Positions 9,031 through 32,614 of a stretch of 32,614 bases of DNA are shown here, piece after piece. Origin of the DNA: Planctomycetaceae bacterium (GTDB lineage Bacteria; Planctomycetota; Planctomycetia; Pirellulales; UBA1268); NCBI GenBank assembly GCA_005791575.1, contig SXWA01000002.1, positions 1 through 32,614 of the forward strand. Reading direction: 5' to 3'. A program made the position numbers and the translations under genes. Numbering within the stretch: position 1 is the first letter of the stretch; each line of letters begins with the position of its first letter. The notes beneath the pieces were generated by a model. The model ran no database searches and had not been told where the DNA came from. It saw nothing but the letters and a program-made list of their open reading frames with translations.

Positions 9031-12000
9031 ATGCGAAGCCACGAACCGGCAGGAGTGAATCGGCATGCCGCGCGCGCCCGCATCGGCGGCTTCCTGCTCG
9101 TGATCGCGCTGACGAGCTCGACCGTCAGCATCGCGGCGGACGGGGCCGCGGCAGACGGGCCGCCCGCCCCCGGTGCATCCACCGGCCCGGCCGCCATCAA
9201 CCTTGCCGCGCGGCTGGCCGCCGAGGACCGGGCGGGGCTCGCCGCAGACGCCGCGCGCCTCGGCAACCCGGCTCGCGGAGCCACGCTGTTCCACTCCCGA
9301 CAGTTCGCCTGCGTGCAGTGCCACGCCGCCGAGGCCGGGAGCGGCCCGATCGGCCCCGGCCTGGCGGCGCTGCCCGCCGGCGTGCCGCGCGAACGCCTCG
9401 TTCCCCATCTCGTCGAGTCGCTCCTCGATCCCTCGGCGGTGATCCGCCCCGAGTACCGCGCGGTGACGGTCGTCACCGACGAGGGGCGCGGCATCACCGG
9501 CATCGTCGCACGTGAGACGGCCACCGACCTCGTGCTCCGCGCCGCCGCCGCCGGGGGCCGCGAACTCGTCGTGCCGAAAGCCACGATCGTGGAGCGGGCG
9601 GCGGCCACGGCATCGCTGATGCCCGCGGGGCTGGCCTCCCTCCTCGCCGACCGGGCCCAATTCCTCGACCTGGTGAAGTACCTCGCCGAGATCGCCACCG
9701 GAGGCCCCCGGCGCGCGGCGCAGCTCGCCCCCGATCCGGCCCTCCTCGCCGCCGCCGGCGCGCCCGAGACCGACATCGATCATGCCGGCTTCATCGCCGA
9801 CTGGGACGATCCGCTGAAGCACCGCGCGGCGCTCGAGCGCGGGGGGGCGATCTACGCCCGGGTCTGCGCCAACTGCCACGGCACGCTCGACGCACCCGGT
9901 TCGCTCCCCACGGCGCCGCGGTTCGCCACCACCTCCTTCAAGGCGGGCAGCGATCCCTTCTCCCTCTACCGCACGCTGACCCACGGCAACGGCCTGATGG
10001 TCGCCCAGGGGTGGATGGTGCCGGCCCAGAAGTACGACGTCATCCACTTCCTGCGCGAGACGTTCCTCCGCGACCACAACCCCGCCTGGTACACGGCCGT
10101 CACGCCCGAGTACCGGGCCGCGCTCCCGGCGGGGACGAGCCGTGGCCCCGCCCCCTCGACCGTCGAACCGTGGCGGATCCACGACTACGGGCCGTTCATC
10201 GCCGCGACGATCGAGGCCGGTGACGACGGCACTGCCATCGCGCGGAAGGGACTCGCCGTCCGCCTCGACACGGGCCCCGGCGGCGTCGAGCGTGGCCACG
10301 CCTGGGTCCTCTGGGAACTCGACACGCTGCAGATGAGCGCGTTCTGGACCGGCGAGCAGTTCATCGACTGGAGCGGGATCAACTTCGACGGCCGCCACGG
10401 TGTCCATCCGCGCGTGGTCGGCGACCTGCAGGCGACCCTGGCCACCATGCCCGGCTGGGCCGACCCCGACAGCGGATCATTCTCCGATCCGCGGCCGCGC
10501 GGGCGTGACGAGCGCCCCTACGGCCCGCTGCCGCGCGGGCACGCCCGCTTCCGGGCGCTCCATCATGTGGCCCTCGACGGTGGCCCCGGGGCGGAGCCAC
10601 GCTCGGGGGTGATCCTCGAATCGCTCGTCGGTACGACCCCGGTGTTGGAGAGCGCGGCGCTGGCGCGACCGCTGGCCGGAGACGGCACGCAGGTGCCGGT
10701 GATGGTGAGATCCTTCTCGACAGGCCCACGGGCCCGTCCCCTCGCGATCCGCCTCGCGGCGGCCCCGGCCAGCGCGGCGCTCGTCGGCCCGCCGCCGTCC
10801 ACCCCTGACTCCGGCCCGCGCGTCGTCATCCGCGACGGCCATGTCGATCTCCTCGTTCCGGGCGGCGACGAACCACTCGATGTCGCCGTCGCCGTCGCCA
10901 GGGCGGCGCCGGGGGATTTGGCCCGCCACGCCGCGGGGCTCGCTCCCCCTCCGCCACCCCGCTCACTCGTCGGCCGGCCGGCGCCGGCGCTCTGGCCCAC
11001 GTCGGTGGCGACCACCGTGCGAACCGGCGACGGCAACGGCCCTTTCGCCGTCGACGTGCTCACTCCCCCCGACGCCAACCCGTGGAACGCCCAGTGCCGC
11101 CTCTCCGGCATCGACTTCACCGGCCCCGACGCCGCCGTCGTCTGCACCTGGGACGGTGACGTCTGGAGCGTGCGCGGCCTCGCCGCGGCCGACGGCCGGC
11201 TCTTCTGGCGGCGGATCGCCACCGGGCTCTTCCAGCCGCTGGGGATCAAGGTGATCGACGGAGTGGTCCACGTCTCCTGCCGCGACCGGATCGCGATCCT
11301 CGTCGATCTCGACGGCGACGGGCTCACCGACCGCTACGACACCTTCAACGACGACCACCAGGTCACCGAGCACTTCCACGAATTCGCGATGGGGCTCGAG
11401 ACCGACGCCACGGGCAACGTCTACTACGCCAAGAGCGCCCGCCACGCCCTCACCGCCGTCGTGCCACACCACGGCACGCTCCTCTGCGTCTCCCCCGACG
11501 GCGCGACGACCCGGATCGTGGCCAACGGTTTCCGCGCCGCCAACGGTGTCTGCGTCGAGCCCGACGGCACCTTCTGGGTGACCGACCAGGAAGGGCACTG
11601 GAACCCGAAGAACCGGATCAACCACGTCGTCCCCGGTGGCTTCTACGGCAACATGTTCGGCTACCACGACGTCACCGATCCGAGCGACGCCGCGATGGCC
11701 CCCCCCGCGTTCTGGATCACCAACGCTTTCGACCGCTCACCGGCCGAATTGGTCCGGGTGCACAGCGCGCGCTGGGCACCGCTCGACGGCGCCCTGCTCG
11801 AACTCTCCTATGGCGAGGGGCGCGTCCACCTCGTGCTCACCGAACCGCTCCCTGCGCGCCCCGGCGTCGTCCAGGGGGGCATGGTGGCTCTGCCGATCGC
11901 CGACCTGCCGACGGGGGTGATGCGTGGCCGGTTCCATGACGATGGCCACCTCTACGCCTGCGGGCTCTTCGCCTGGGCCGGCAACCGCACGCAACCGGGG

Positions 12001-12354
12001 GGCTGCTACCGGATCCGCCGCACCGCCGCACCGCTCCACCTCCCCACCGCCCTGCACGCCGCCCCTGGAGAGCTGCGCCTCACTTTCCCCGAGCCGCTCG
12101 ACCGCGCCGCCGCCATGTCATCCAACGCGTGGGCACTGCGCACCTGGGGACTGAAGCGCACGAAGAACTACGGATCCCCGCACATCGACGAGACCGACCG
12201 CGCGGTGGCCGCCGTCGAACTCTCCACGGACGGGCGCATCGTCACCCTCCGTGCCCCCGACTTCGCCGCCACCTGGTGCTACGCGCTCGAATGGGACGTG
12301 GCGGCCGCCGACGGATCGCCCGTGCGCGGCGCGCTCCACGGCACGCTCCACTGA
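9031..12354 (+). CDS. Large secreted di-c-type-heme protein with C-terminal beta-propeller-like region (possibly DUF6797-type)
   Basis: 1107 aa; signal peptide; CVQCH (9310-9324) and CANCH (9864-9878); C-terminal 'GLETDATGNVYYAKSARH', 'GFRAANGVCVEPDGTFWVTDQEGHWNPKNRINHV' resembles sugar-dehydrogenase/NHL propellers. Confidence 0.8.
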   Translation: MRSHEPAGVNRHAARARIGGFLLVIALTSSTVSIAADGAAADGPPAPGASTGPAAINLAARLAAEDRAGLAADAARLGNPARGATLFHSRQFACVQCHAAEAGSGPIGPGLAALPAGVPRERLVPHLVESLLDPSAVIRPEYRAVTVVTDEGRGITGIVARETATDLVLRAAAAGGRELVVPKATIVERAAATASLMPAGLASLLADRAQFLDLVKYLAEIATGGPRRAAQLAPDPALLAAAGAPETDIDHAGFIADWDDPLKHRAALERGGAIYARVCANCHGTLDAPGSLPTAPRFATTSFKAGSDPFSLYRTLTHGNGLMVAQGWMVPAQKYDVIHFLRETFLRDHNPAWYTAVTPEYRAALPAGTSRGPAPSTVEPWRIHDYGPFIAATIEAGDDGTAIARKGLAVRLDTGPGGVERGHAWVLWELDTLQMSAFWTGEQFIDWSGINFDGRHGVHPRVVGDLQATLATMPGWADPDSGSFSDPRPRGRDERPYGPLPRGHARFRALHHVALDGGPGAEPRSGVILESLVGTTPVLESAALARPLAGDGTQVPVMVRSFSTGPRARPLAIRLAAAPASAALVGPPPSTPDSGPRVVIRDGHVDLLVPGGDEPLDVAVAVARAAPGDLARHAAGLAPPPPPRSLVGRPAPALWPTSVATTVRTGDGNGPFAVDVLTPPDANPWNAQCRLSGIDFTGPDAAVVCTWDGDVWSVRGLAAADGRLFWRRIATGLFQPLGIKVIDGVVHVSCRDRIAILVDLDGDGLTDRYDTFNDDHQVTEHFHEFAMGLETDATGNVYYAKSARHALTAVVPHHGTLLCVSPDGATTRIVANGFRAANGVCVEPDGTFWVTDQEGHWNPKNRINHVVPGGFYGNMFGYHDVTDPSDAAMAPPAFWITNAFDRSPAELVRVHSARWAPLDGALLELSYGEGRVHLVLTEPLPARPGVVQGGMVALPIADLPTGVMRGRFHDDGHLYACGLFAWAGNRTQPGGCYRIRRTAAPLHLPTALHAAPGELRLTFPEPLDRAAAMSSNAWALRTWGLKRTKNYGSPHIDETDRAVAAVELSTDGRIVTLRAPDFAATWCYALEWDVAAADGSPVRGALHGTLH

Positions 12355-20753: not shown

Positions 20754-21248
20754 ATGGAAACGATCCGCTTCCGGCACGCGCACTTCTCGGCCCGGTTCCC
20801 GGTGGACTACCGCTATTCCCCTTCCCACTTCTGGATGGCACCGGTGGAGGATGGATCACGGCCTGTCTGGCGGGTGGGGTTCACGAAGTTCGCCACGCGG
20901 ATGCTCGGGGAATTGGTGGAGATGGTCGTCGAGCCGCCGCTCGGCGCCGCCGTGCAGGCGGGGAGCCGCCTCGGCACCGTCGAGGGTTTCAAGGCGGTGA
21001 GTGATCTCTACTGCGTCGTCGATGGCACGCTGACCGACGTCAACCGGGCGCTGACGGCCGAAGCATGCCTCACCCACGCCGATCCCTACGGCGCCGGCTG
21101 GCTGTATGCCGTCGCGGGGGAACCGGAGGCCGGCCACCTCGACGTGCATGGCTATGTCGCCCTCCTCTCGGCGACGATCGATCGATTGCAGGCCTCACGC
21201 TATAGTGGGGGCGGGTCCGTAGGCAGCCACGGGGAGGAGCGTCCATGA
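20754..21248 (+). CDS. GcvH-like lipoyl-carrier protein (divergent)
   Basis: 'VGFTKFATRMLGELVEMVVEPPLGAAVQAGSRLGTVEGFKAVSDLYCVVDGTLTDVNRAL' with the lipoyl-Lys context of GcvH (E-x-x-KAVSD-x-Y), 'DPYGAGWLYAV'. Confidence 0.85.
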   Translation: METIRFRHAHFSARFPVDYRYSPSHFWMAPVEDGSRPVWRVGFTKFATRMLGELVEMVVEPPLGAAVQAGSRLGTVEGFKAVSDLYCVVDGTLTDVNRALTAEACLTHADPYGAGWLYAVAGEPEAGHLDVHGYVALLSATIDRLQASRYSGGGSVGSHGEERP

Positions 21249-22360
21249 GCCAGCCGACCGCCCGCTACGTGATGGTCGGCGGCTTCCTCGGTGCCGGCAA
21301 GACGACGTCGATCCTCCGCTTCGCCCATTGGCTCACGGCCCGCGGCCTGCGGGTGGGGCTGGTCACCAACGATCAGGGTGGCGGACTGGTCGACACGGCG
21401 CTCGCCGGCGCCCACGGCATGCCGGTCGAGGAGATCGTCGGCGGCTGCTTCTGCTGCCGGTTCACGTCGCTCGTCGAGGCGGCGGAGACCCTCGTCCGCG
21501 ATACCGCCCCCGACGTCCTCATCGCCGAACCGGTGGGGAGCTGCACCGACCTCGTGGCCACGGTGAGCCTGCCGCTGGAGCGGCTCTACGGCGACCGCTT
21601 CACCGTTGCCCCGATGAGCGTGGTGGTCGATCCACTGCGGGCCGAGCGCGTGCTCGGCCTCGCCGCCGCCCGCCTCTCGGAGCACGTCAGCTACATCTAC
21701 CGCAAGCAGCTCGAGGAGGCGGAGATCGTCGTCGTCAACAAGTGCGATCTGGTCGACCGGTCGCGGCTCGACAGGCTCCGCGCGGCGCTGGCGGAGGTGG
21801 CACCGCGGGCGACGGTCTTCGAGTGCTCGGCACGCGAGGGCAACGGTCTGGAGGGGTGGTTCGAGGCCCTGCTTGCCGGCCGCTCACAGGCGACGCCGAT
21901 CGCGGCAATCGACTACGATCGCTACGCACTCGGCGAATCGCTCCTCGGGTGGCTCAACGCCGAGGTCCGCATCGGCAACGGCGCGGGACCCGAGTTCGAC
22001 GGGAACCAACTCCTGCTGACGATCCTCGGGGCCGTGCGCGCGGCCCTCGAGCGCTCCGGCCACGAGATCGCCCACCTCAAGGGCACGCTCGCCGTCGATG
22101 GCGACCCGTACGAGCTCGCCGCCGCGAATCTCGTCCGCACGGCCGACCCCCCCGCCCTCTCGCACCGGCTCTCCGACCCGCTCGATATCGGCCGCCTGCT
22201 CCTCAATCTCCGCGCCGAGGCCGATCCGGACCTCCTCGAGCGCTCCGTCCGTGAAGCGCTCGCTGCGGCCTGCGGCGACCTCCCGCACGAGACCCTCCAT
22301 GTGGAACATTTCCGCCCCGGCCGCCCCGTGCCCACCCACCGGCTTCCCGCCCGCGTCTGA
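21245..22360 (+). CDS. CobW/G3E-family GTPase (metallochaperone-like)
   Basis: Walker A 'GGFLGAGKTT', CxCC motif 'GGCFCC', 'NKCD'; ATGA overlap with the gcvH-like stop. Confidence 0.87.
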   Translation: MSQPTARYVMVGGFLGAGKTTSILRFAHWLTARGLRVGLVTNDQGGGLVDTALAGAHGMPVEEIVGGCFCCRFTSLVEAAETLVRDTAPDVLIAEPVGSCTDLVATVSLPLERLYGDRFTVAPMSVVVDPLRAERVLGLAAARLSEHVSYIYRKQLEEAEIVVVNKCDLVDRSRLDRLRAALAEVAPRATVFECSAREGNGLEGWFEALLAGRSQATPIAAIDYDRYALGESLLGWLNAEVRIGNGAGPEFDGNQLLLTILGAVRAALERSGHEIAHLKGTLAVDGDPYELAAANLVRTADPPALSHRLSDPLDIGRLLLNLRAEADPDLLERSVREALAAACGDLPHETLHVEHFRPGRPVPTHRLPARV

Positions 22361-22383: not shown

Positions 22384-23634
22384 ATGATCCTCCCGCAGCT
22401 CACCTCCAGGATCGTCTCGACCGTGGCCCCCAACTGCCTGTGGAAGGCGGGGTGGAACTTCGGTGCGAAGGGGATGCTGTCGGTCGAGCGGTTCCGTGGT
22501 CGGAAGCAGCGTGGCACCGTCTTCCCGCCGTTCCTCCACCTCTCGATCATCAACAGTTGCAACCTCGCCTGCCAGGGCTGCTGGGTCGACGTGGCGGCGC
22601 CGCGGACGATGCTCTCCACCGCACAGCTCGATGCGATCGTCGGCGACGCCAAGGCCCACGGCAATTCGTTCTTCGGGATTCTCGGCGGCGAGCCGTTCCT
22701 CCATCCGGGGCTCTTTGACCTCCTCGAGCGGCACCGCGACTGCTACTTCCAGATCTTCACCAACGGCCAGCTCGTCACCCCCGACGTCGCCCGCCGCCTC
22801 CAGCGCCTCGGCAATGCCACGCCGCTGGTGAGCATCGAGGGGGATGCCGCTGCCAGCGACATCCGCCGCGGCAACCGCCAGGTGCTGTCGCGCACGCTGC
22901 GCGGGCTCGAGGCCTGCCTCGAGGCACGGCTCCTCACCGGCGTGGCCTCGAGCCTCTGCCAGTCGAACATCGACACCCTCCTCACCGAGAAGTGGCTCGA
23001 CCACCTCATCGAACTGGGGGTCCATTACACGTGGTTCCACGGCTACCGCCCCGTGGGCCCCGAATCGTCGCCGGAACTGGCCCTCACCCCGGAGCAGCTC
23101 GTGCGCGTGCGCCGCTTCGTGGTGGAACAGCGCGCCCGCAAGCCGATCGCGATCGTCGACGCCTACTACGACGGCGAGGGCGCGGCCCTCTGCCCGATGG
23201 CGGCGGGGATCACCCACCATGTCGGTCCGTCGGGCTACATCGAGCCCTGCCCGATCATCCAGTTGGCGGTCGACCATGTCGACGACGGTCCGTTCTTCGA
23301 GACGCTGACGAAGTCGGCCTACCTGGCCGACGTCCGCGCCGCGGCTGCCCGCCACAGCCGCGGCTGCATCGTCCTCGAGAACCCCCGGCTGCTCCTCGAG
23401 ATCGCCGACCGGCACGGTGCGAAAGACACCACGCAGCGCGGCACCGCCCGCGCGGAACTGGAGGCGATGACGCCGCGGTCGAGCCAGGACCTCCCCGGCC
23501 GCGAGATCCCCGAGCGGCACTGGATGTATCGCCTTGCCAAGGGGCGCTGGTTCAACGACTTCGGGGCCTATGCCAAGGCGAAGCGCCCCGCCGCGCTGCC
23601 GGCGGCCGGGAGCGCCCGGAGCGACACCCCATGA
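22384..23634 (+). CDS. Radical SAM protein
   Basis: 'INSCNLACQGCWVDV' (CxxxCxxC at 22558-22581), 'GILGGEPFLHPGLFDLL', 'QIFTNGQLV', C-terminal cysteines 'GYIEPCPIIQ'. Confidence 0.9.
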   Translation: MILPQLTSRIVSTVAPNCLWKAGWNFGAKGMLSVERFRGRKQRGTVFPPFLHLSIINSCNLACQGCWVDVAAPRTMLSTAQLDAIVGDAKAHGNSFFGILGGEPFLHPGLFDLLERHRDCYFQIFTNGQLVTPDVARRLQRLGNATPLVSIEGDAAASDIRRGNRQVLSRTLRGLEACLEARLLTGVASSLCQSNIDTLLTEKWLDHLIELGVHYTWFHGYRPVGPESSPELALTPEQLVRVRRFVVEQRARKPIAIVDAYYDGEGAALCPMAAGITHHVGPSGYIEPCPIIQLAVDHVDDGPFFETLTKSAYLADVRAAAARHSRGCIVLENPRLLLEIADRHGAKDTTQRGTARAELEAMTPRSSQDLPGREIPERHWMYRLAKGRWFNDFGAYAKAKRPAALPAAGSARSDTP

Positions 23635-23996
23635 GCCAGCCCCAGCCCGCACCACGGATCCTCTATTGCCGGTGTGCCTACGCGCAGGTGGTGCCCGCCG
23701 AGGTGAAGGATGCCGTGCTCGACGGGCTCGCCCGCGCGGAGGTGGCCTTCGAGATGGTGCCCGACCTGTGCGAGATGGCGGCCCGCCGCGATCCCCATCT
23801 GGCCGAGCTCGCCCGCGGCGACGGCCCGTTGACGATCGCCGCCTGCTGGCCGCGGGCCGTCGAGGGGCTGTTCAGCCTCGCCGACGCACCGCTGCCGCGC
23901 GCCGGGGTGCGGATCGTCAACATGCGCACCGATGCCGCCCCGGCGATCCTCGACGAGCTGCTCGGTGCCGACCGTCCGACCGGAGATGCGTCATGA
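23631..23996 (+). CDS. Small Cys-containing protein with HdrA-like segment
   Basis: 121 aa: 'ILYCRCAYAQVVPAEVKDAVLDGL...DLCEMAARRDPHLAELARGDGPLTIAACWPRAVEGLF'; ATGA overlaps on both sides. Confidence 0.72.
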   Translation: MSQPQPAPRILYCRCAYAQVVPAEVKDAVLDGLARAEVAFEMVPDLCEMAARRDPHLAELARGDGPLTIAACWPRAVEGLFSLADAPLPRAGVRIVNMRTDAAPAILDELLGADRPTGDAS

Positions 23997-24889
23997 TCGC
24001 CAGCCCGCCGCTGCCGCCACGGGTGGTCGTCTACGAAGGACGCGGCAGCACGCCGTTCGATCCCGGCGAACGCAGCCGCCTCCTCGCCGGTCTCCTCGAT
24101 CGCGGCTATTCGGTCGTCCGCGCGGGTGCCGGGCGGGCGGAGGCGGGCGCGGCCACGGCATTCATCGTTCTCGGCTGCTTCGGCGGCGCGCCGCCCGAGG
24201 TGGGCGACGCCGCGGGGCGCGACGTCGCCGTCTGCGACATCACGGGCCGCTCGGCCGACGAGGCGATCGCCCTCGTCGAGCAGCGCCGCGACGGTCGGCC
24301 GATGAACCGCCCCGACGCCGCCGGCCCCGGCCAGTGGAAGCCCTGGTTCCCGGTGATCGATCTGGCCCGCTGCACCAACTGCATGCAGTGCCTGAGCTTC
24401 TGCCTGTTCGACGTCTACGGTGTCGCCGCCGACCACACGCTGCGGGTCGAGAACCCGGCCAACTGCAAGGTGAACTGCCCCGCCTGCTCCCGGGTCTGCC
24501 CCGAAGTGGCGATCATGTTCCCCAAGTACCACGCCGGACCGATCGACGGCGGGCCGGTTTCGGAGTCGGACGTCCAGCGCGAGAAGATGAAGGTCGACAT
24601 CTCCGCCCTCCTCGGTGGCGACATTTACTCGCGGCTCCGCGAGCGCTCCGCCGAGGCGAAGCAGCGGTTCTCGCGCGAACGGAGCGCCGACCAGGCTCTC
24701 GCGGAGCGGCGCCGCTGCCTGACGAAGCTCGCCGATGCCGCGGCGATCCCCCGCGAGGTGCTCGACGCCCTCCCCAGTCCGGAGGAGATCCAGCGCCGCA
24801 CCGAGGAGGCGGCGCGACGGGCCGAGGCGGCGCGGGTGGCCCAGGGGGCCCGTGCCGCCCAGGGCAGCACACCGGCCGGAACGACCTGA
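23993..24889 (+). CDS. 4Fe-4S ferredoxin-type protein (two clusters) with N-terminal extension
   Basis: 'CTNCMQCLSFC' and 'CKVNCPACSRVCPEVAIMF'; ATGA overlap with previous gene. Confidence 0.87.
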   Translation: MIASPPLPPRVVVYEGRGSTPFDPGERSRLLAGLLDRGYSVVRAGAGRAEAGAATAFIVLGCFGGAPPEVGDAAGRDVAVCDITGRSADEAIALVEQRRDGRPMNRPDAAGPGQWKPWFPVIDLARCTNCMQCLSFCLFDVYGVAADHTLRVENPANCKVNCPACSRVCPEVAIMFPKYHAGPIDGGPVSESDVQREKMKVDISALLGGDIYSRLRERSAEAKQRFSRERSADQALAERRRCLTKLADAAAIPREVLDALPSPEEIQRRTEEAARRAEAARVAQGARAAQGSTPAGTT

Positions 24890-24908
24890 CGATCGACGAC
24901 GGTGGACG

Positions 24909-24943
24909 AAAGGGGAGGGTTTCCAGCGGAAACCCCCCCTTTT
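24909..24943 (+). terminator. Rho-independent-type terminator
   Basis: AAAGGGGAGGGTTTCC-AGC-GGAAACCCCCCCTTTT: 16-nt arms, one A:C mismatch and one G:T, 3-nt loop, T-run at 3' end; starts 20 bp after the ferredoxin stop. Confidence 0.75.
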
Positions 24944-24957
24944 CGCAGAGCCGGTCT

Positions 24958-25056: not shown

Positions 25057-26808
25057 ATGTCCACAGCCGACCGTTCCCCGATCGCGCTTGCCATCCTGCC
25101 GCCTCCGGTGCCGCCGGCAGTCGTTCGCGCGCGGCCACCACAGGCCTCGATCCCCCAGACGAAGGTCGAGCGCGACGCGCTTCTCAATGCGATCCGCCGG
25201 GGCATGCTCCACGAGAAGGCCGTCCCTCCCCTCGGCATGGAGGAACTGCGGCGCCGGGCCGCGGCGGCCCTGACCGAGGCCGGCCTCGCCGAGAGCTACC
25301 TCGACTACGCCGTCGTGATCGCCAACAACGAATCGTGGCGCGACGCCCTCGCCGCCGTCCCCTTCGACCGCCGGCTGCTCCTGATGCCGAAGTGCCTGCG
25401 GGTGGAGAGCCGCTGCCCGGCCCCGTTCGACGAGTTCGGCCTCCTCTGCAAGCAGTGCGGCCTGTGCTCGATCCAGGACTTCCAGGTCGAGGCGGAGCGC
25501 CTCGGCTACGCCGTGCTCGTTGCCGAGGGTTCGGCGCTGGTGATGGCGATGGTCCAGACCGGCAAGATCGAGGCGATCGTCGGCGTGAGCTGCATGCCGG
25601 TGCTCGAGAAGACCTTCCCCCACGTGCAATCCGCCGCCATCCCGGCAGTGGCGGTGCCGCTCCTCCAGGACGACTGCATCGACACCACGGTCGACATCGA
25701 CTGGGTGTGGGACTACATCCATCTCGAGGCGGCCGACCGCTCCCGGCGCCTCGATCTCGGCGGCCTCCACGACGCCGTGAAGGCGTGGTTCGAGCCCGCA
25801 ACCCTCGACGAGGTGATGGGGCCCCCGGTCGGGCATGCCGAGGAAGTGGCGCGGCAATGGCTGGCCGTCGGCGGGCGCCGCTGGCGGCCGTTCCTCGCCG
25901 CGGCGGTCTTCGAGGCGCTGCGGCCCGACGCGTCGCCTGACGGCGGCAGCGGAGAGGCGATCCGCCGCGCCGCGGTGGCGGTCGAGTGCTTCCACAAGGC
26001 GTCGCTGGTGCACGACGACATCGAAGACGGCGACCTCGAGCGCTACGGCGAACCCACGCTCTGCGGGGCACAGGGGGTGCCCGTGGCGCTCAACGTCGGC
26101 GACCTGCTGATCGGCGAGGGGTACCGCCTGCTCGCCGACTCCGGGCTCGACGCCGCGCGGGTGCAGGCGGCGGTCCGCGAGGCGGCCGCCTCGCAGCGGC
26201 TCCTCTGCCAGGGGCAGGGTGCGGAGCTCTCCTGGAGCCGCTCCCCCGTGCAGCTCGCCAGCCGCCAGGTGCTGGAGATCTTCCGGCTCAAGACCGCGCC
26301 CGCCTTCGATGTCGCCCTCCAACTCGGCGCGATCTGCGCCGGCCGGGGGCCGGAGGTCGCCGACGTGCTCCGCGCCTACAGCGAGGCGGTGGGGATCGCC
26401 TACCAGATCAAGGACGACGTCGAGGACCTGCAGGACGACGCGGGCCTCGCGCGGCAGGCCGAGGCCCGGCCGAGCGTGGTGCTGGCGCTGGCGGCCGAAA
26501 AGGCACGCGGCGACGACCGTGAGATGCTCGCGGCGATCGCCGGCGGGCGCCGCCATGAAGCCGCCACGCCGGCCCGCCTCCGCGAGGCGATCCGGGCGAC
26601 GAAGGCCGACGAACGGGCGGCCCTCCTCCTCGAGGGCTACAAGGAACAGGCGGTCCGCGCTCTCGAGGGCCTCACCGACCCCACGCTCAAGGGCCTCCTC
26701 CGCCGCGTCGTGTCGCGGATCTTCAACGATCTCCAATTCGAGGGCTATTGCCGCGAACAGGAGGCCGTGGCCAGGCAGCGCGACGACACCGCGACAGCGA
26801 CGGCCTGA
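25057..26808 (+). CDS. DUF116-polyprenyl (isoprenyl diphosphate) synthetase fusion protein
   Basis: N-terminal DUF116-like Cys-rich domain 'LLMPKCLRVESRCPAPFDEFGLLCKQCGLCSIQDFQVEAERLGYAVLVAEGSALV...IVGVSCMPVLEK...DDCIDT'; C-terminal prenyl synthase with 'GGRRWRPFLA', DDIED (26014-26028) and DDVED (26413-26427). Confidence 0.85.
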   Translation: MSTADRSPIALAILPPPVPPAVVRARPPQASIPQTKVERDALLNAIRRGMLHEKAVPPLGMEELRRRAAAALTEAGLAESYLDYAVVIANNESWRDALAAVPFDRRLLLMPKCLRVESRCPAPFDEFGLLCKQCGLCSIQDFQVEAERLGYAVLVAEGSALVMAMVQTGKIEAIVGVSCMPVLEKTFPHVQSAAIPAVAVPLLQDDCIDTTVDIDWVWDYIHLEAADRSRRLDLGGLHDAVKAWFEPATLDEVMGPPVGHAEEVARQWLAVGGRRWRPFLAAAVFEALRPDASPDGGSGEAIRRAAVAVECFHKASLVHDDIEDGDLERYGEPTLCGAQGVPVALNVGDLLIGEGYRLLADSGLDAARVQAAVREAAASQRLLCQGQGAELSWSRSPVQLASRQVLEIFRLKTAPAFDVALQLGAICAGRGPEVADVLRAYSEAVGIAYQIKDDVEDLQDDAGLARQAEARPSVVLALAAEKARGDDREMLAAIAGGRRHEAATPARLREAIRATKADERAALLLEGYKEQAVRALEGLTDPTLKGLLRRVVSRIFNDLQFEGYCREQEAVARQRDDTATATA

Positions 26809-26812
26809 CGCG

Positions 26813-27709
26813 ATGAGCCTGCGAGTCCAGATGCTGCAGGTGGCCAGGCTGGCACGCCGGTCGCTCGGCGATGCGGCCGATCTCGTGGTGTCGTTCATCC
26901 ACTCCACGGCCGATCCGAGCGGCGGCTACTGCAACCGCGACGCCCGTCGCGACCTCTACTACACCGCCTTCGCCCTCGACGCGCTCGTCGGGCTCGACGC
27001 CTTCGACCCGCTGACCCCCGCCGCCGACCGCACCCGGCAGTGGCTCGACACGCTCGCCGACGGCGCCGACCTCGACCTCGTCCACCGCGCCTGCCTGGCC
27101 CGCGCGTGGGCGGCCCAGCCGACCGCCGCGGTGCCGGCGGGCAGGCGTGAGGCGATCGCCGCCCGGCTCGCCCCCCAACGCACCGCCGACGGGGGATTTG
27201 CATCCCGTGGCGGTGCCCCGCGCGGCACGGCCTACGGCTGTTTCCTCGCCGTCAACGCCCACGCCGACCTCGGCCAGCCGCTCCCCGATCCCGATGGGGT
27301 GGTGCGCTGCCTCGCGTCGCTCCGCAGTGCCGACGGCGGTTGGTCGAACGAGCCGGAACAACCCCTCGGATCGACCACCGCCACCGCCGCGGCGATCGCC
27401 ACCCTCCGGCAGCTCGATCGACCGGTGCCGGCGCATGCCGCCGAGTGGCTGCTCGACCGGCGTCATCCCGCCGGGGGGTTCGTCGCCGCCCCCGATGCCC
27501 CGATCCCCGACCTCCTCTCGACGGCGGTCGCGCTCCACGCCCTCGACGCCCTCGATGCTCCATGGCGTGACTCGCGCGAGCAGGTGCTCGATTTCCTCGA
27601 CTCCCTCTGGACAGCCGCCGGCGCCTTCCACGGGTCGTGGGCCGACGACATCCCCGACTCCGAGTACACGTTCTACGGTCTCGTGGCCCTCGGGCATGCG
27701 AGCGTATGA
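26813..27709 (+). CDS. Prenyltransferase/squalene-cyclase-type alpha/alpha-barrel protein (short)
   Basis: 298 aa; repeated 'QRTADGGF', 'LRSADGGWSNEP', 'HPAGGFVAAPDAPIPDLLSTAVALHAL', 'SEYTFYGLVALGHAS'. Confidence 0.75.
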   Translation: MSLRVQMLQVARLARRSLGDAADLVVSFIHSTADPSGGYCNRDARRDLYYTAFALDALVGLDAFDPLTPAADRTRQWLDTLADGADLDLVHRACLARAWAAQPTAAVPAGRREAIAARLAPQRTADGGFASRGGAPRGTAYGCFLAVNAHADLGQPLPDPDGVVRCLASLRSADGGWSNEPEQPLGSTTATAAAIATLRQLDRPVPAHAAEWLLDRRHPAGGFVAAPDAPIPDLLSTAVALHALDALDAPWRDSREQVLDFLDSLWTAAGAFHGSWADDIPDSEYTFYGLVALGHASV

Positions 27710-29544
27710 CCTGGGCCACCCCCTCGATCATCGGCTCGGCTGCCTTCGATCGGACCCACCGGGCGGCCGTCGAGCGCTTGCTCGCGGCTCGGAACGACGC
27801 CGGCCACTGGACCGGCCGGCTCTCCTCCAGCGCCCTCTCCACCGCCACGGCGCTCAACGCCCTGCGGCTGGTTTCCGCCGCCGACCATGCCGACCGCATC
27901 GCCGCCGGTGCCGACTGGCTCGTGGCGACGCAGCGCCCGGACGGGAGTTGGGGCGACACCGTCGACAGCGTCGGTAACCTCTCCACCACGCTCCTCTGCT
28001 GGGCCGTGCTCGCCGCACTCGACGAGGGCGCGGTCGGCACCTCCCCCGGCGGCGCCCGCGCCGCCGCCATCGACCGGGCGGCCGGCTGGATCCGCCACCA
28101 CACCGGCAGCCTCGATGGCGCCGCGATCGCCAGCACGCTGGCGACGATCTATGGCCGCGACCGCACCTTCAGCGTGCCGATCCTCACCCACGTGATCCTC
28201 TGCGGCCGCTGCGGCGATCCGCGCGCGGCCACGACCTGGCGGATCGTGCCGCAGCTCCCCTTCGAGTTCGCTGCCCTGCCCGCCTCGTGGTTCCGGCTCG
28301 TCGACATGCAGGTGGTGAGCTACGCGCTGCCCGCCCTGATCGCCATCGGCCAGGTGCGGCACGCCCACCGTCCGTCGTGGGCCCTGCCCCGCTGGCTGCG
28401 GCAGCAGGCCACCGGCCCGACGCTCGCCCGGCTCGCCGCGATCCAGCCCGACAACGGCGGCTACCTCGAGGCCACGCCACTGACGTCGTTCGTGACGATG
28501 AGCCTGGCGGGCATGGGCCACGCCCGGCACGAGGTCGCCCGTCGTGGTGAGGGATTCCTCGTGAAGTCGCAGCGGCCCGACGGGTCGTGGCCAATCGACA
28601 CGAATCTCGCCACCTGGTGCACCACCCTGGCGGTGACGGCTCTGGCGGCCGCGGGGCGCCTCGCCGACCACCTCGACGCGCGGGGGCGCGCGGCGGTGCG
28701 CGGGTGGCTGCTCGGCCAGCAGTGGCGGCGGATCCATCCCTCCACCTCCGCCGCGGCGGGCGGCTGGGCCTGGACCGACCTCCCCGGCGGCGTGCCCGAT
28801 GCCGACGACACGAGCGGCGCGGTGACGGCGCTGGCGGCACTGGCGGCCGCTGAGTCGGGCACCGAGTCGAGTACCGAGTCGAGCGCCGTCGAGCCCGCCG
28901 TCCGCCGCGCGGCCCACGAGGGGCTCGGGTGGCTGGCGGGACTCGCCAACCGCGACGGTGGGATCCCGACGTTCTGCCGCGGCTGGGGGCGATTGCCGTT
29001 CGACACGTCGTGTCCCGACATCACGGCTCATTTCCTCCGTGCCGCCGAGGCCTGGCAGTCTGCCGGTGCCGCGACGCGGGCGGGCCACCGCTACCTCGCG
29101 CGCACGCAACGGGCCGACGGCTCGTGGGAGCCGCTCTGGTTCGGGAACCAGCACCATCCCACCCAGGCCAACCCCGCCTACGGCACGGCGCGGGTGGTGC
29201 TCGCCACGCTCGACCCCCGCGGCGCGGCCTGGCTGATCGACGCCGTGCAACCCGATGGCGGGGTCGGCCCCGCTGCCGGAATCCCCGCTTCGGTCGAGGA
29301 GACGGCCGTGGCTGTCGAGGCACTCGCCCGCGTGGCGGCCGAATCACCGATGGCGGACCTGCGCGACCGGGCCCGCGCCGCGGTCGCCGCAGGTGTCGGC
29401 TGGCTGCTCGACCGCAGCGCCGAGGGCACGCGCTTCCCCGCGGCGCCGATCGGCCTCTACTTCGCCAAGCTCTGGTATGACGAGGCGCTCTATCCGCTCG
29501 TCTTTACGGTCGCGGCCCTCGAGCGGGCGACGCGGCTCCGCTGA
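27706..29544 (+). CDS. Squalene-hopene/class II terpene cyclase-like protein
   Basis: 612 aa; QW-like 'QRPDGSWGDT', 'SQRPDGSWPID', 'TQRADGSWEPLWFGNQ'; catalytic-type 'DADDTSG' (28798-28812) matching DxDDT; ATGA overlap with previous gene. Confidence 0.82.
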   Translation: MTWATPSIIGSAAFDRTHRAAVERLLAARNDAGHWTGRLSSSALSTATALNALRLVSAADHADRIAAGADWLVATQRPDGSWGDTVDSVGNLSTTLLCWAVLAALDEGAVGTSPGGARAAAIDRAAGWIRHHTGSLDGAAIASTLATIYGRDRTFSVPILTHVILCGRCGDPRAATTWRIVPQLPFEFAALPASWFRLVDMQVVSYALPALIAIGQVRHAHRPSWALPRWLRQQATGPTLARLAAIQPDNGGYLEATPLTSFVTMSLAGMGHARHEVARRGEGFLVKSQRPDGSWPIDTNLATWCTTLAVTALAAAGRLADHLDARGRAAVRGWLLGQQWRRIHPSTSAAAGGWAWTDLPGGVPDADDTSGAVTALAALAAAESGTESSTESSAVEPAVRRAAHEGLGWLAGLANRDGGIPTFCRGWGRLPFDTSCPDITAHFLRAAEAWQSAGAATRAGHRYLARTQRADGSWEPLWFGNQHHPTQANPAYGTARVVLATLDPRGAAWLIDAVQPDGGVGPAAGIPASVEETAVAVEALARVAAESPMADLRDRARAAVAAGVGWLLDRSAEGTRFPAAPIGLYFAKLWYDEALYPLVFTVAALERATRLR

Positions 29545-30661
29545 CGGCCGCCACGACGGCGTCGATGACCTGCTGCCACTCGGCGGCGGTCGTCTCCCAG
29601 CCGGCGGAGAGCCGCACCATCCCCCCGGCCGCCCTGCCGGCACGATCCGGGCCTCCGCCCGCGGCCGCGAGCACCCGCGGCACGGAATCGGCGCCGGCAC
29701 TGCAGGCCGAGCCTGTCGAGGCGGCCACGCCGGCGCGGCCCAACCACGCGACCACCTTCTTCCCGGTCACGCCGGGGATCACGACGGCCAACGTGTTCCA
29801 GAGCCGCGGTGACCCGGCGCCGACGATCCACGCGCCCGGGACCTCCGCAAGCAGCCGCCGGCCGGCGGCATCGCGCGCCTCCGCCCGGGCCCGCCGCGTG
29901 GTCTCCCCTTCCGGGTCGCGTGCCTCGAGCGCCGCGACCATGGCGGCGATACCGGCGACGTTCTCCGTGCCCGCCCACCGGCCCCGTTCCTGCGGACCGC
30001 CGCGGTCGCCGTGGAAGCCCCGCTCCGCCTCGGGAACGACGAGGAAGCCCACCCCCCGTGGTCCGCCGAACTTGTGGCCGCTGCCCGTCACCCAGTCGCA
30101 GCGGCCGAGCCCTGCCGCCGGCAGTTTCCCGCACCACTGCGCGGCGTCGGTGTGGAAGGCGACGCCGCGCGCGTGGCAGAGGGTGGCGATTTCGTCCCAG
30201 GGCTGGAGCACGCCACTCTCGTTGCTCGCCGCCATCACCGAGACACAGGCGACATCCCGCTGCTCGAGGAGCCGCGCCAGCGCTCCGGTGTTTACGACGC
30301 CGTCGCGATCCACCGGCAGCTCGACGGTCCGGCCGGGGAGGCACTCCTGCAGGGCTTCGCGCACGCAGGGGTGCTCGATCGCCGACAGCGCCACGCCCCG
30401 CCCGGCGGGCACGGTCCGGGCGAGATGGCGCGCGAGGGCGTTGGTGGCCGCCGTCACTCCCCCGGTGAACACGATCCGCTCAGGCGCGCAGCCGACGATG
30501 TCGGCGAGCCGCTCGCGGGCAGCGGCGAGGATCTCGCGGGCGACGGTCGCCTCGGCATAGAGGCCCGACGGGTTGTGCCAGGCCCGCGTGGCGACATCAA
30601 GCCACTCGTCGCGGGCCCGCGGATGCAACGGCGCGGTGGCGTTGAAGTCGAAGTAGGGCAC
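29504..30661 (-). CDS. Cysteine desulfurase (NifS/IscS-like)
   Basis: 'YFDFNATAPLHP', 'AASNESGVLQPWDEI', 'FHTDAAQWCGKLP', PLP-Lys 'GSGHKFGGPRGVGFL', active Cys 'STGSACSAG'. Probable GTG start 30661; ORF opens at 30733. Confidence 0.9.
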   Translation of the reverse strand: MPYFDFNATAPLHPRARDEWLDVATRAWHNPSGLYAEATVAREILAAARERLADIVGCAPERIVFTGGVTAATNALARHLARTVPAGRGVALSAIEHPCVREALQECLPGRTVELPVDRDGVVNTGALARLLEQRDVACVSVMAASNESGVLQPWDEIATLCHARGVAFHTDAAQWCGKLPAAGLGRCDWVTGSGHKFGGPRGVGFLVVPEAERGFHGDRGGPQERGRWAGTENVAGIAAMVAALEARDPEGETTRRARAEARDAAGRRLLAEVPGAWIVGAGSPRLWNTLAVVIPGVTGKKVVAWLGRAGVAASTGSACSAGADSVPRVLAAAGGGPDRAGRAAGGMVRLSAGWETTAAEWQQVIDAVVAAVSGAASPARGPRP

Positions 30662-30748
30662 CGCTGCGAGCCTCTGCCGCCGGCCGTCGAATGGCAACCC
30701 GTTGTAGTCTCCGCGGGGGAAAAGGCGATGCAAGGAGCGCTGCGCCCC

Positions 30749-32614
30749 TCACGGCTCTCCCGCGCGCTCCACCACCACGCGGCCGTCGGCGTGGGCGGTG
30801 ATGGTGAGCAGCTCGTCGTGGAAGCGGATCCCGGTGATCGAGAGGCTCGGCCAATCACGCGGGAGGCGCGGACGGATCTCGTAGCCGGTCGCCGTCGCCC
30901 GGAAGCCGAGGAAACCCTGGAGCATCACCTGCGGCACGAGCACGCTCTCGAGAAACTCGTGGTCGAGACCGAGACCGCCGGCGGTGCCGCCCCCCTGGAG
31001 CGTGCCACGGCCCGGCATCGCGTAGAAGGCCCGGTAGCCCCCCTCCGCCCGGACGTCGCGGAACCAGCCGATGATCGCGCGGAGCCTGTTCCACGCGTCG
31101 TCGGGACCGTGGGTCGCCAGTCGGGCCATCAGGTCCTGGTGGCTGAAGCCGAGCACGGCCCCGCCATCCTGCACCTGGCCCCCCCAGGGGATGCTCTCGG
31201 GATGGAACCAGGGCCAGACGTAGGTCGTCTCGTTGCGCAGTGTCGTCGAACGCGGCCCGAAGCGCCAGTGGTAGATGTCGGCTCCGCGCGACGTGTCCCC
31301 CGCCACCTCGCGGCGCCCGTCGAGCCAGTCGAGGATCCCCGCCGCCTGACCGGGAGTCGCCATCCCGGCGGCCACCGCCTCCAGATTCACGAACGTGAAA
31401 CCGAAGTCGCAGGGGCGGCCGTCAGCGTCGATCCAGCCGACGAAGCGGCCGGTGTCGTCGCTCCAGAACCGTGTCTGGAAGTCGGCACGGATCGCCGCCG
31501 CGAGCGCGTCGAGCGCGGCGGGATCGAAAGGGGCGGAGTCGGCCGGCACCTCCCACTCCGGGTGCGCGGCGATGCGTCGTTCGAGGTCCGCCAGGGCCCG
31601 GACCGCATCGTGGATGTGGAGTGTGGCGAGGGCGTCGTGGGCGCCGAAGGGGAGCAGATCCCAGTAGTTGTTGCCCACCCCATGGCCGACGCGCATCGAC
31701 TTGCGACCATCGGGACCGAAGCCGATGCCGGAGCGGCCGTCGTGCCCCACCCAGGAAACGAGCGCGTGCCGCTCCTCGCGGACGCGGAACTCGGTCAGGG
31801 CGAACTCCAGCGCCCGCCGCATCCGGCCGATGCTCCGCCGGAGGAAGTCGATGTCGCCCGTCCAGGCGACGAAGTCAGAGCACGCGCGGACGAAAAACGG
31901 ATTGGTGACCGGATGCCGCGTGTCGATCGCCGTGATCACCGATGCGAGGTCGATCTCCGCCCCTGCCGCATGATCGACATGGAGGCGGTAGCGGGTGAGG
32001 ATCCCCGCATGCCCCAAATGGCGGTAGAGGGGCACGTTGTCGGAGCGCGGCTCACCGGGGGCGGCGATCTCCACGACACGACCGGCGGGCCACTCCCCCT
32101 CCCCCTCGAGCAGCCACTCGATCCCCGCCCGCGCCTCCGCGCCGAGCCCGCGTGCGCCCCACTCGATCCGGGCGAACGGGGCCACGATCGTGCCGCAACG
32201 GAACGGTGGCGTCGTGATCGTCACGCGGTCGGCGGTGGCGACCAGGCGCAGCCCCGCCTCCGCATCGATGCCGCGCACCTCGGCACCGGTGATCTCCCAG
32301 CCCTCTGTGCTCGTCAGCGCCTGCAAGCGGAACATCTGCCTGGCCCAGACGTCGTCCGCGACCGCGAAGTGGAACCCCGCCCCGCCGCTCTGCTGCCACG
32401 CCGGAAACGGCCAGCCCTCGGAGTGGGCCATCCCGCGGTGCTGCTGCATCGAGACATAGCCCTCGGCATCGATGCGCCGGCCGAGGAGGGCCCGCCGATA
32501 CTGTTCCCGCTTCGTCGCCGACGCCCAGAGCGTGGCCTGCGGCAGCCAGACGTCCCAGAGCGTGCAGTCGGAGAAGGCGGCGTCGTGGTGGAGCGCGTGG
32601 AGCTCGTCGAGGGC
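30749..32614 (-). CDS. Six-hairpin (alpha/alpha)6-barrel glycosidase-like protein, partial (5' end beyond window)
   Basis: 566+ aa, frame remains open to the window edge ('...LWDVWLPQATLWASATKREQYRRALLGRRIDAEGYVSMQQHRGMAHSEGWP'); 'NETTYVWPWFHPESIPWGGQVQDGGAVLGFSHQDL'. Confidence 0.6.
   Translation of the reverse strand, partial: ALDELHALHHDAAFSDCTLWDVWLPQATLWASATKREQYRRALLGRRIDAEGYVSMQQHRGMAHSEGWPFPAWQQSGGAGFHFAVADDVWARQMFRLQALTSTEGWEITGAEVRGIDAEAGLRLVATADRVTITTPPFRCGTIVAPFARIEWGARGLGAEARAGIEWLLEGEGEWPAGRVVEIAAPGEPRSDNVPLYRHLGHAGILTRYRLHVDHAAGAEIDLASVITAIDTRHPVTNPFFVRACSDFVAWTGDIDFLRRSIGRMRRALEFALTEFRVREERHALVSWVGHDGRSGIGFGPDGRKSMRVGHGVGNNYWDLLPFGAHDALATLHIHDAVRALADLERRIAAHPEWEVPADSAPFDPAALDALAAAIRADFQTRFWSDDTGRFVGWIDADGRPCDFGFTFVNLEAVAAGMATPGQAAGILDWLDGRREVAGDTSRGADIYHWRFGPRSTTLRNETTYVWPWFHPESIPWGGQVQDGGAVLGFSHQDLMARLATHGPDDAWNRLRAIIGWFRDVRAEGGYRAFYAMPGRGTLQGGGTAGGLGLDHEFLESVLVPQVMLQGFLGFRATATGYEIRPRLPRDWPSLSITGIRFHDELLTITAHADGRVVVERAGEP

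Follow-up and report, generated by a model that had tools for sequence, protein, structure and literature searches.

The window, i.e., the whole stretch of 32,614 nucleotides that we analysed, carries a cassette of eight genes in the order g1 (GcvH-like), g2 (CobW), g3 (radical SAM), g4, g5 (ferredoxin-like), g6, g7, and g8 (Table 1). Within g6, a DUF116 domain is joined to a trans-isoprenyl diphosphate synthase (IPPS), and g7 and g8 resemble enzymes of terpene cyclisation.

Table 1 Features of the cassette locus, with positions in the window; residues are those of g6
Feature	Position	Strand	Description
g1	20754..21248	+	GcvH-like single lipoyl-domain protein, 164 aa; PF01597, 5e-20
g2	21245..22360	+	CobW/G3E-family GTPase, 371 aa; PF02492, 4.9e-25
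g3	22384..23634	+	Radical SAM protein, 416 aa; PF04055, 3.8e-13
g4	23631..23996	+	Small Cys protein, 121 aa, CxC...C...AACxPR; alignment
g5	23993..24889	+	Ferredoxin-like, 298 aa; Cys clusters CTNCMQC...C and C...CPAC...C
Hairpin between g5 and g6	24905..24946	+	Strong hairpin, -27.8 kcal/mol, z -3.94
g6	25057..26808	+	DUF116-IPPS fusion, 583 aa
DUF116 domain of g6	25279..25716	+	Residues 75-220, seven invariant Cys; PF01976, 7.3e-35
trans-IPPS domain of g6	25840..26559	+	Residues 262-501; PF00348, 3.2e-37
FARM of g6	26014-26028	+	DDIED, D320-D-I-E-D324
SARM of g6	26413-26427	+	DDVED, D453-D-V-E-D457
g7	26813..27709	+	Single alpha-alpha toroid protein, 298 aa, prenyltransferase/cyclase-like; PF00432, 9.1e-10, alignment
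g8	27706..29544	+	SHC-like class II cyclase, 612 aa; PF13243, 5.9e-25; PF13249, 3.4e-15
g9	29504..30733	-	NifS/IscS-type cysteine desulfurase, convergent; PF00266, 1.2e-43

The translation of g6 is a single uninterrupted frame with no internal stop. A sequence-only reading of the window had proposed that DUF116 and an isoprenyl diphosphate synthase are fused here, and the Pfam search bears this out. The DUF116 model reaches 120.2 bits (cut-off 25) and the polyprenyl synthetase model 128.5 bits (cut-off 27), i.e., both lie nearly five times above their cut-offs, and the missing DUF116 match that this reading had named as counter-evidence did not occur. Both aspartate-rich motifs it had pointed out are found in g6. 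Its cysteine pattern was right for the C-x2-C-x2-C, C, C part and had to be corrected at the first spacing, which is x6 and not x7. The DUF116 cysteines are C113, C120, C131, C134, C137, C179, and C207, with the spacing x6, then x10, then C-x2-C-x2-C, C, C. The open frame of g6 begins at about 23833, and ATG 25057 is not its first start; many homologues align from residue 1 of the protein that starts at this ATG. The GC-rich hairpin of Table 1 lies inside the 167-base gap between g5 and g6. It is possibly a terminator or attenuator, and a transcript of its own is conceivable for g6.

AlphaFold2 (AF2) models g6 with a mean pLDDT of 79 for the whole protein and 73 for the DUF116 domain. The latter is predicted as an alpha/beta domain in which the cysteine loop has low confidence. 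Searched alone, DUF116 gave no significant match among solved structures or in fold searches. The IPPS half matches the fold of the GGPP synthase 1wy0 (E 1.4e-12, TM 0.82 by target).

In g1, the lipoyl-type lysine K80 (in EGFKA) is invariant among 13 homologues. An assignment of g1 as GcvH was rejected at 72.9 bits, below the equivalog cut-off of 115.85, and fusion carriers possess a canonical GcvH besides g1. An assignment as LbpA was rejected as well: the alignment has no invariant cysteine, and the two extra cysteines of most LbpAs are absent. g3 has the CxxxCxxC motif together with the invariant C-terminal cysteines C270, C289, and C328. Pfam and NCBIfam gave no match for g4, and the PDB gave none that is meaningful; a weak likeness to the N-terminal domain of HdrA was seen with hhalign (probability 58%, P 1e-4, 37 columns). 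The Fer4 models score just under cut-off on g5, and its ferredoxin-like cysteine set is invariant in the alignment. We also considered a relatedness of g4 and g5; the two proteins are not related. The cysteine desulfurase g9 matches TIGR03402 with 1.4e-68, which is under the cut-off of that model, and accompanies the cassette in some of the loci. Beside it on the minus strand (30749-32449), a 566-aa protein has a marginal match to the glycosyl hydrolase 65 C-terminal domain (22.5 bits, cut-off 22). Farther away, positions 9031-12354 encode a protein of 1107 aa that combines DUF6797 with a cytochrome c domain and is apparently unrelated to the cassette.

The planctomycete loci L002-L024 show the cassette order again, up to the limits of their contigs. 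In the distant planctomycete locus L129, the order is kept and g3 has moved next to g6. A scan of GTDB genomes with g6 gave 577 relatives, which we name at phylum level only as several records bear doubtful species names. The best 80 of the 577 belong to Planctomycetota and Verrucomicrobiota and are mostly full length with 55-88% identity. The search for the same fusion elsewhere, suggested along with the sequence-only reading, thus yielded single-frame homologues in two phyla. In an alignment of 54 sequences, the mean pairwise identity is 82% for DUF116 compared with 60% for the IPPS half. Hence, DUF116 is the more constrained half of g6.

All seven DUF116 cysteines are invariant in 15 other fused and six standalone DUF116 proteins, including distant ones; row L116, which represents a wrong frame, is left out of this comparison. 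In a quick tree of the DUF116 domain, all fused copies fall into one group, which is compatible with one fusion event. A row of this group filed as "alone" (L110) is a 669-aa frame with homology to the cassette, and a 232-aa row of genome G007, close to a contig end, branches beside the group. In our searches, we found no description of the DUF116-IPPS fusion or of the cassette in the literature covered, which left most subscription journals outside, and the combined searches on the cassette genes returned generic terpene-cluster surveys only. It is quite possible that databases contain entries of this domain architecture.

Only one DUF116 domain scores above cut-off in the window's own genome. 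This genome encodes a second DUF116-IPPS-like protein (L155/L164; contig C71 of G000, IPPS match at 9204-9878), which is about 32% identical to g6. Its N-terminal half has lost several of the seven cysteines, with the result that a search at E 0.001 does not find DUF116 in it any more. That this paralogue keeps the IPPS part, and that AF2 cannot place the cysteine loop of g6, fits a different role of the cysteines: they could be zinc ligands or have a purely structural or docking function, which would make g6 an ordinary IPPS with a scaffold domain. We regard this as rather unlikely, as both the many redox genes of the cassette and the C-x2-C-x2-C cluster speak for an iron-sulfur centre. Some of the seven invariant cysteines in the DUF116 half of g6 are probably ligands of an Fe-S cluster.

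DUF116 is not confined to the fusion and occurs in archaea and Clostridia too. We found standalone DUF116 genes in seven loci (L112, L113, L114, L117, L120, L121, and L132). By names that we assigned to the sequences by eye, the gene order in the planctomycete L112 is def, fmt, DUF116, and rsmB, and that in the clostridial L132 (Acetoanaerobium) is def, fmt, DUF116, a zinc-peptidase-like gene, and rsmB. As the standalone form lies among translation genes, an isoprenoid role of the domain is not obligatory. One DUF116 relative was found among plasmid records. On the 2.63-Mb record NZ_CP154629.1, labelled as an Acetoanaerobium noterae plasmid, there are priA, def, fmt, rsmB, and rlmN-like genes, and this record looks chromosomal. 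Titles and abstracts of the literature describe no function for DUF116.

Of 18 carriers of the fusion, 17 have two further IPPS, which makes three in total, and the window's own genome has four. The fused FARM has Ala at position -5 and no insertion, like one IPPS type of the same genomes; Tyr at -5 and a DDxxxxD motif mark the other type. Ala at -5 of a FARM with no insertion goes with longer chains. The product of g6 is thus likely C25 or longer.

Two positions of the fused IPPS deviate from the usual pattern. Where IPPS usually have an RR pair after the FARM, g6 and 10 of the 11 fused proteins compared with it read RY, with Tyr for the second Arg; the eleventh (L127) reads RD. Of 11 IPPS taken for comparison, 10 have RR and one, L155, has RY. 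In E. coli IspA, the position of the second Arg contacts the diphosphate of IPP. In addition, Asn replaces the first Asp of the SARM in fusions of distant planctomycetes; the paralogue L155/L164 shares both changes (RY/ND). Hence, the acceptor may not be plain IPP, and the reaction of the IPPS half may be altered. Taken further, these substitutions would suit an IPPS-fold half that transfers its prenyl group to another acceptor and is not a chain elongator at all. However, the FARM is intact throughout, the window's lineage has an intact SARM as well, and GKxxRP, H, and KT are retained, so we give this possibility a minor weight only.

The cyclase g8 has the acid motif DADDT at residues 365-369. 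D365, D367, and D368 are invariant in 19 sequences, as is H442, which stands in place of the partner His of squalene-hopene cyclase (SHC). The best PDB match of g8 is the squalene-hopene cyclase 1gsz (1.3e-21). Squalene or phytoene synthases (PF00494) were found in 47 of 57 planctomycete carriers of the fusion and in all 25 further carriers tested. No PF00494 match was obtained in ten planctomycetes with both the fusion and g8, eight of which have g3 too; the strongest cases are G238 (closed, 100% complete), G053, and G154 (both 99%). In these carriers, g8 probably uses a substrate other than squalene, for which the g6 product suggests itself. As all 25 further carriers have PF00494, squalene may be the substrate there, and the argument holds for planctomycetes only.

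SHC-type cyclases take hydrocarbons, yet no enzyme to supply squalene or phytoene was detected in the eight carriers that have the fusion, g8, and g3. This could be reconciled if a [4Fe-4S] cluster of DUF116 reduced the allylic diphosphate by an IspH-like reductive elimination, which would leave a diphosphate-free polyprene for g8 in place of squalene. The strong constraint on DUF116 with its seven invariant cysteines would suit such a catalytic role. We found neither a sequence nor a fold relation of DUF116 to IspH, however, and the standalone domain sits in a translation-gene context, so we consider this reaction unlikely. The same low probability applies to the wider scheme in which the Fe-S domain transforms the nascent allylic diphosphate (e.g., by reductive removal of the diphosphate) for an SHC-type cyclase that works without squalene synthase, followed by tailoring with the radical SAM protein and the lipoyl carrier.

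Next to its gene order, we examined the inheritance of the cassette in 246 planctomycete genomes, all at least 85% complete except the window's own genome (74.5%). A gene was called fused when an open frame of at least 366 aa surrounded the DUF116 match; a check at the level of the motifs covers the 15 other fused proteins mentioned above. Both the fusion and g8 are present in 55 genomes, the fusion alone in two, g8 alone in three, and neither in 186. For g3, counted only at E 1e-140 or better, the corresponding numbers are 53 with both, four with the fusion only, one with g3 only, and 188 with neither. All three are present in 52 of the 246 genomes. The Fisher values for these co-occurrences are around 1e-48; they ignore shared ancestry and are not to be taken at face value. 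Among the three genomes with g8 only, g8 is cut at a contig end in G009 and G164, and a DUF116 piece lies beside g8 in G072.

We also covered 26 further carriers, nearly all Verrucomicrobiota, in which g8 is found in 24 and g3 in 25, mostly away from the fusion and as a rule on a different contig. They were reached through their fusion loci, so the association is tested from one side only, and one of them (G267) is apparently identical to G192 of the first sample. In the closed genome G238, the radical SAM gene lies about 3 Mb from the fusion. As the co-occurrence persists without physical linkage, it argues for a shared function.

Below the threshold for g3, there is a second tier of radical SAM proteins with E about 1e-60 to 1e-68 (G007, G083, G102, G112, G116, G124, G165, G173, and G176), which we kept separate. 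Most genomes that encode them lack the fusion or g8, and these proteins are probably a sister family.

The redox and terpene genes might also be unrelated neighbours, with the fusion merely lying between them. Their dispersal in several lineages and the squalene/phytoene synthases of most carriers would agree with this. The near-perfect co-occurrence of the fusion with g8 and g3, unlinked cases included, makes it highly unlikely. The sequence-only reading had seen g6 as a bridge between the redox genes upstream and the terpene genes downstream, and the kept gene order together with the unlinked co-occurrence strengthens this view.

In our preferred reading, g6 is a specialised additional trans-IPPS whose product, probably of C25 or longer, feeds g8, and its DUF116 domain, probably with an Fe-S cluster, ties it to the redox set. 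We assign this reading a probability of roughly 55%. It is built on the fusion, its conservation, the co-inheritance with the cyclase and the radical SAM protein, the aspartate motifs that are intact in this lineage, and the intact class II acid motif. If the genes form one shared pathway, the steps could follow in this order. The IPPS half of g6 would make an isoprenyl diphosphate, probably C25 or longer. This product would be passed to g8, perhaps with the help of g7, and converted into a cyclised terpenoid, possibly a membrane lipid. The DUF116 half, probably as an Fe-S protein, would link prenyl synthesis to g3, g4, and g5 as well as to g1 and g2.

With these results, DUF116 gains a concrete metabolic context and partners that can be tested. 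The gene set co-inherited in Planctomycetota and Verrucomicrobiota probably makes an undescribed cyclised terpenoid, and a fusion cassette of PVC bacteria has a bearing on the membrane biology of this group. For work with lipid biomarkers, there may be a risk of mistaking SHC-like genes for hopanoid genes when the genome has no squalene/phytoene synthase.

Parts of the cassette resemble known systems. The standalone DUF116 proteins (PF01976, about 155 aa) have the same domain and the same seven cysteines as g6. In contrast to g6, they have no IPPS half, lie among translation genes, and are about 25-32% identical to the fused domain. In the sHdr sulfur-oxidation system, the gene of the GcvH-like lipoyl carrier LbpA occurs together with genes for an HdrA-like Cys protein and a radical SAM protein (PMC6067878). 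Here, g1 is accompanied by the radical SAM protein g3 and by g4 with its weak likeness to HdrA. Most LbpAs have two conserved extra cysteines, which some archaeal LbpAs lack (PMC6067878). In comparison, g1 has no such pair, and the full Hdr-like gene set was not seen in the cassette. In adenosylhopane formation, the radical SAM enzyme HpnH is linked to a triterpene-type cyclase, as is g3; g3 reaches only 31.9 bits with the HpnH model (cut-off 225) and is nearer to SPASM-type families. With long-chain trans-isoprenyl diphosphate synthases (PF00348), g6 shares the fold, FARM, SARM, and Ala at -5. It differs from them in its N-terminal DUF116 and in Tyr for the second Arg after the FARM, and all scores with NCBIfam equivalogs are far under their cut-offs. 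Squalene-hopene cyclase has the two-domain toroid and the class II acid motif in common with g8, which scores 64.6 bits with the respective equivalog, far under the cut-off of 431. Unlike squalene-hopene cyclase, g8 is co-inherited with g6, including in planctomycetes without a detectable PF00494 enzyme.
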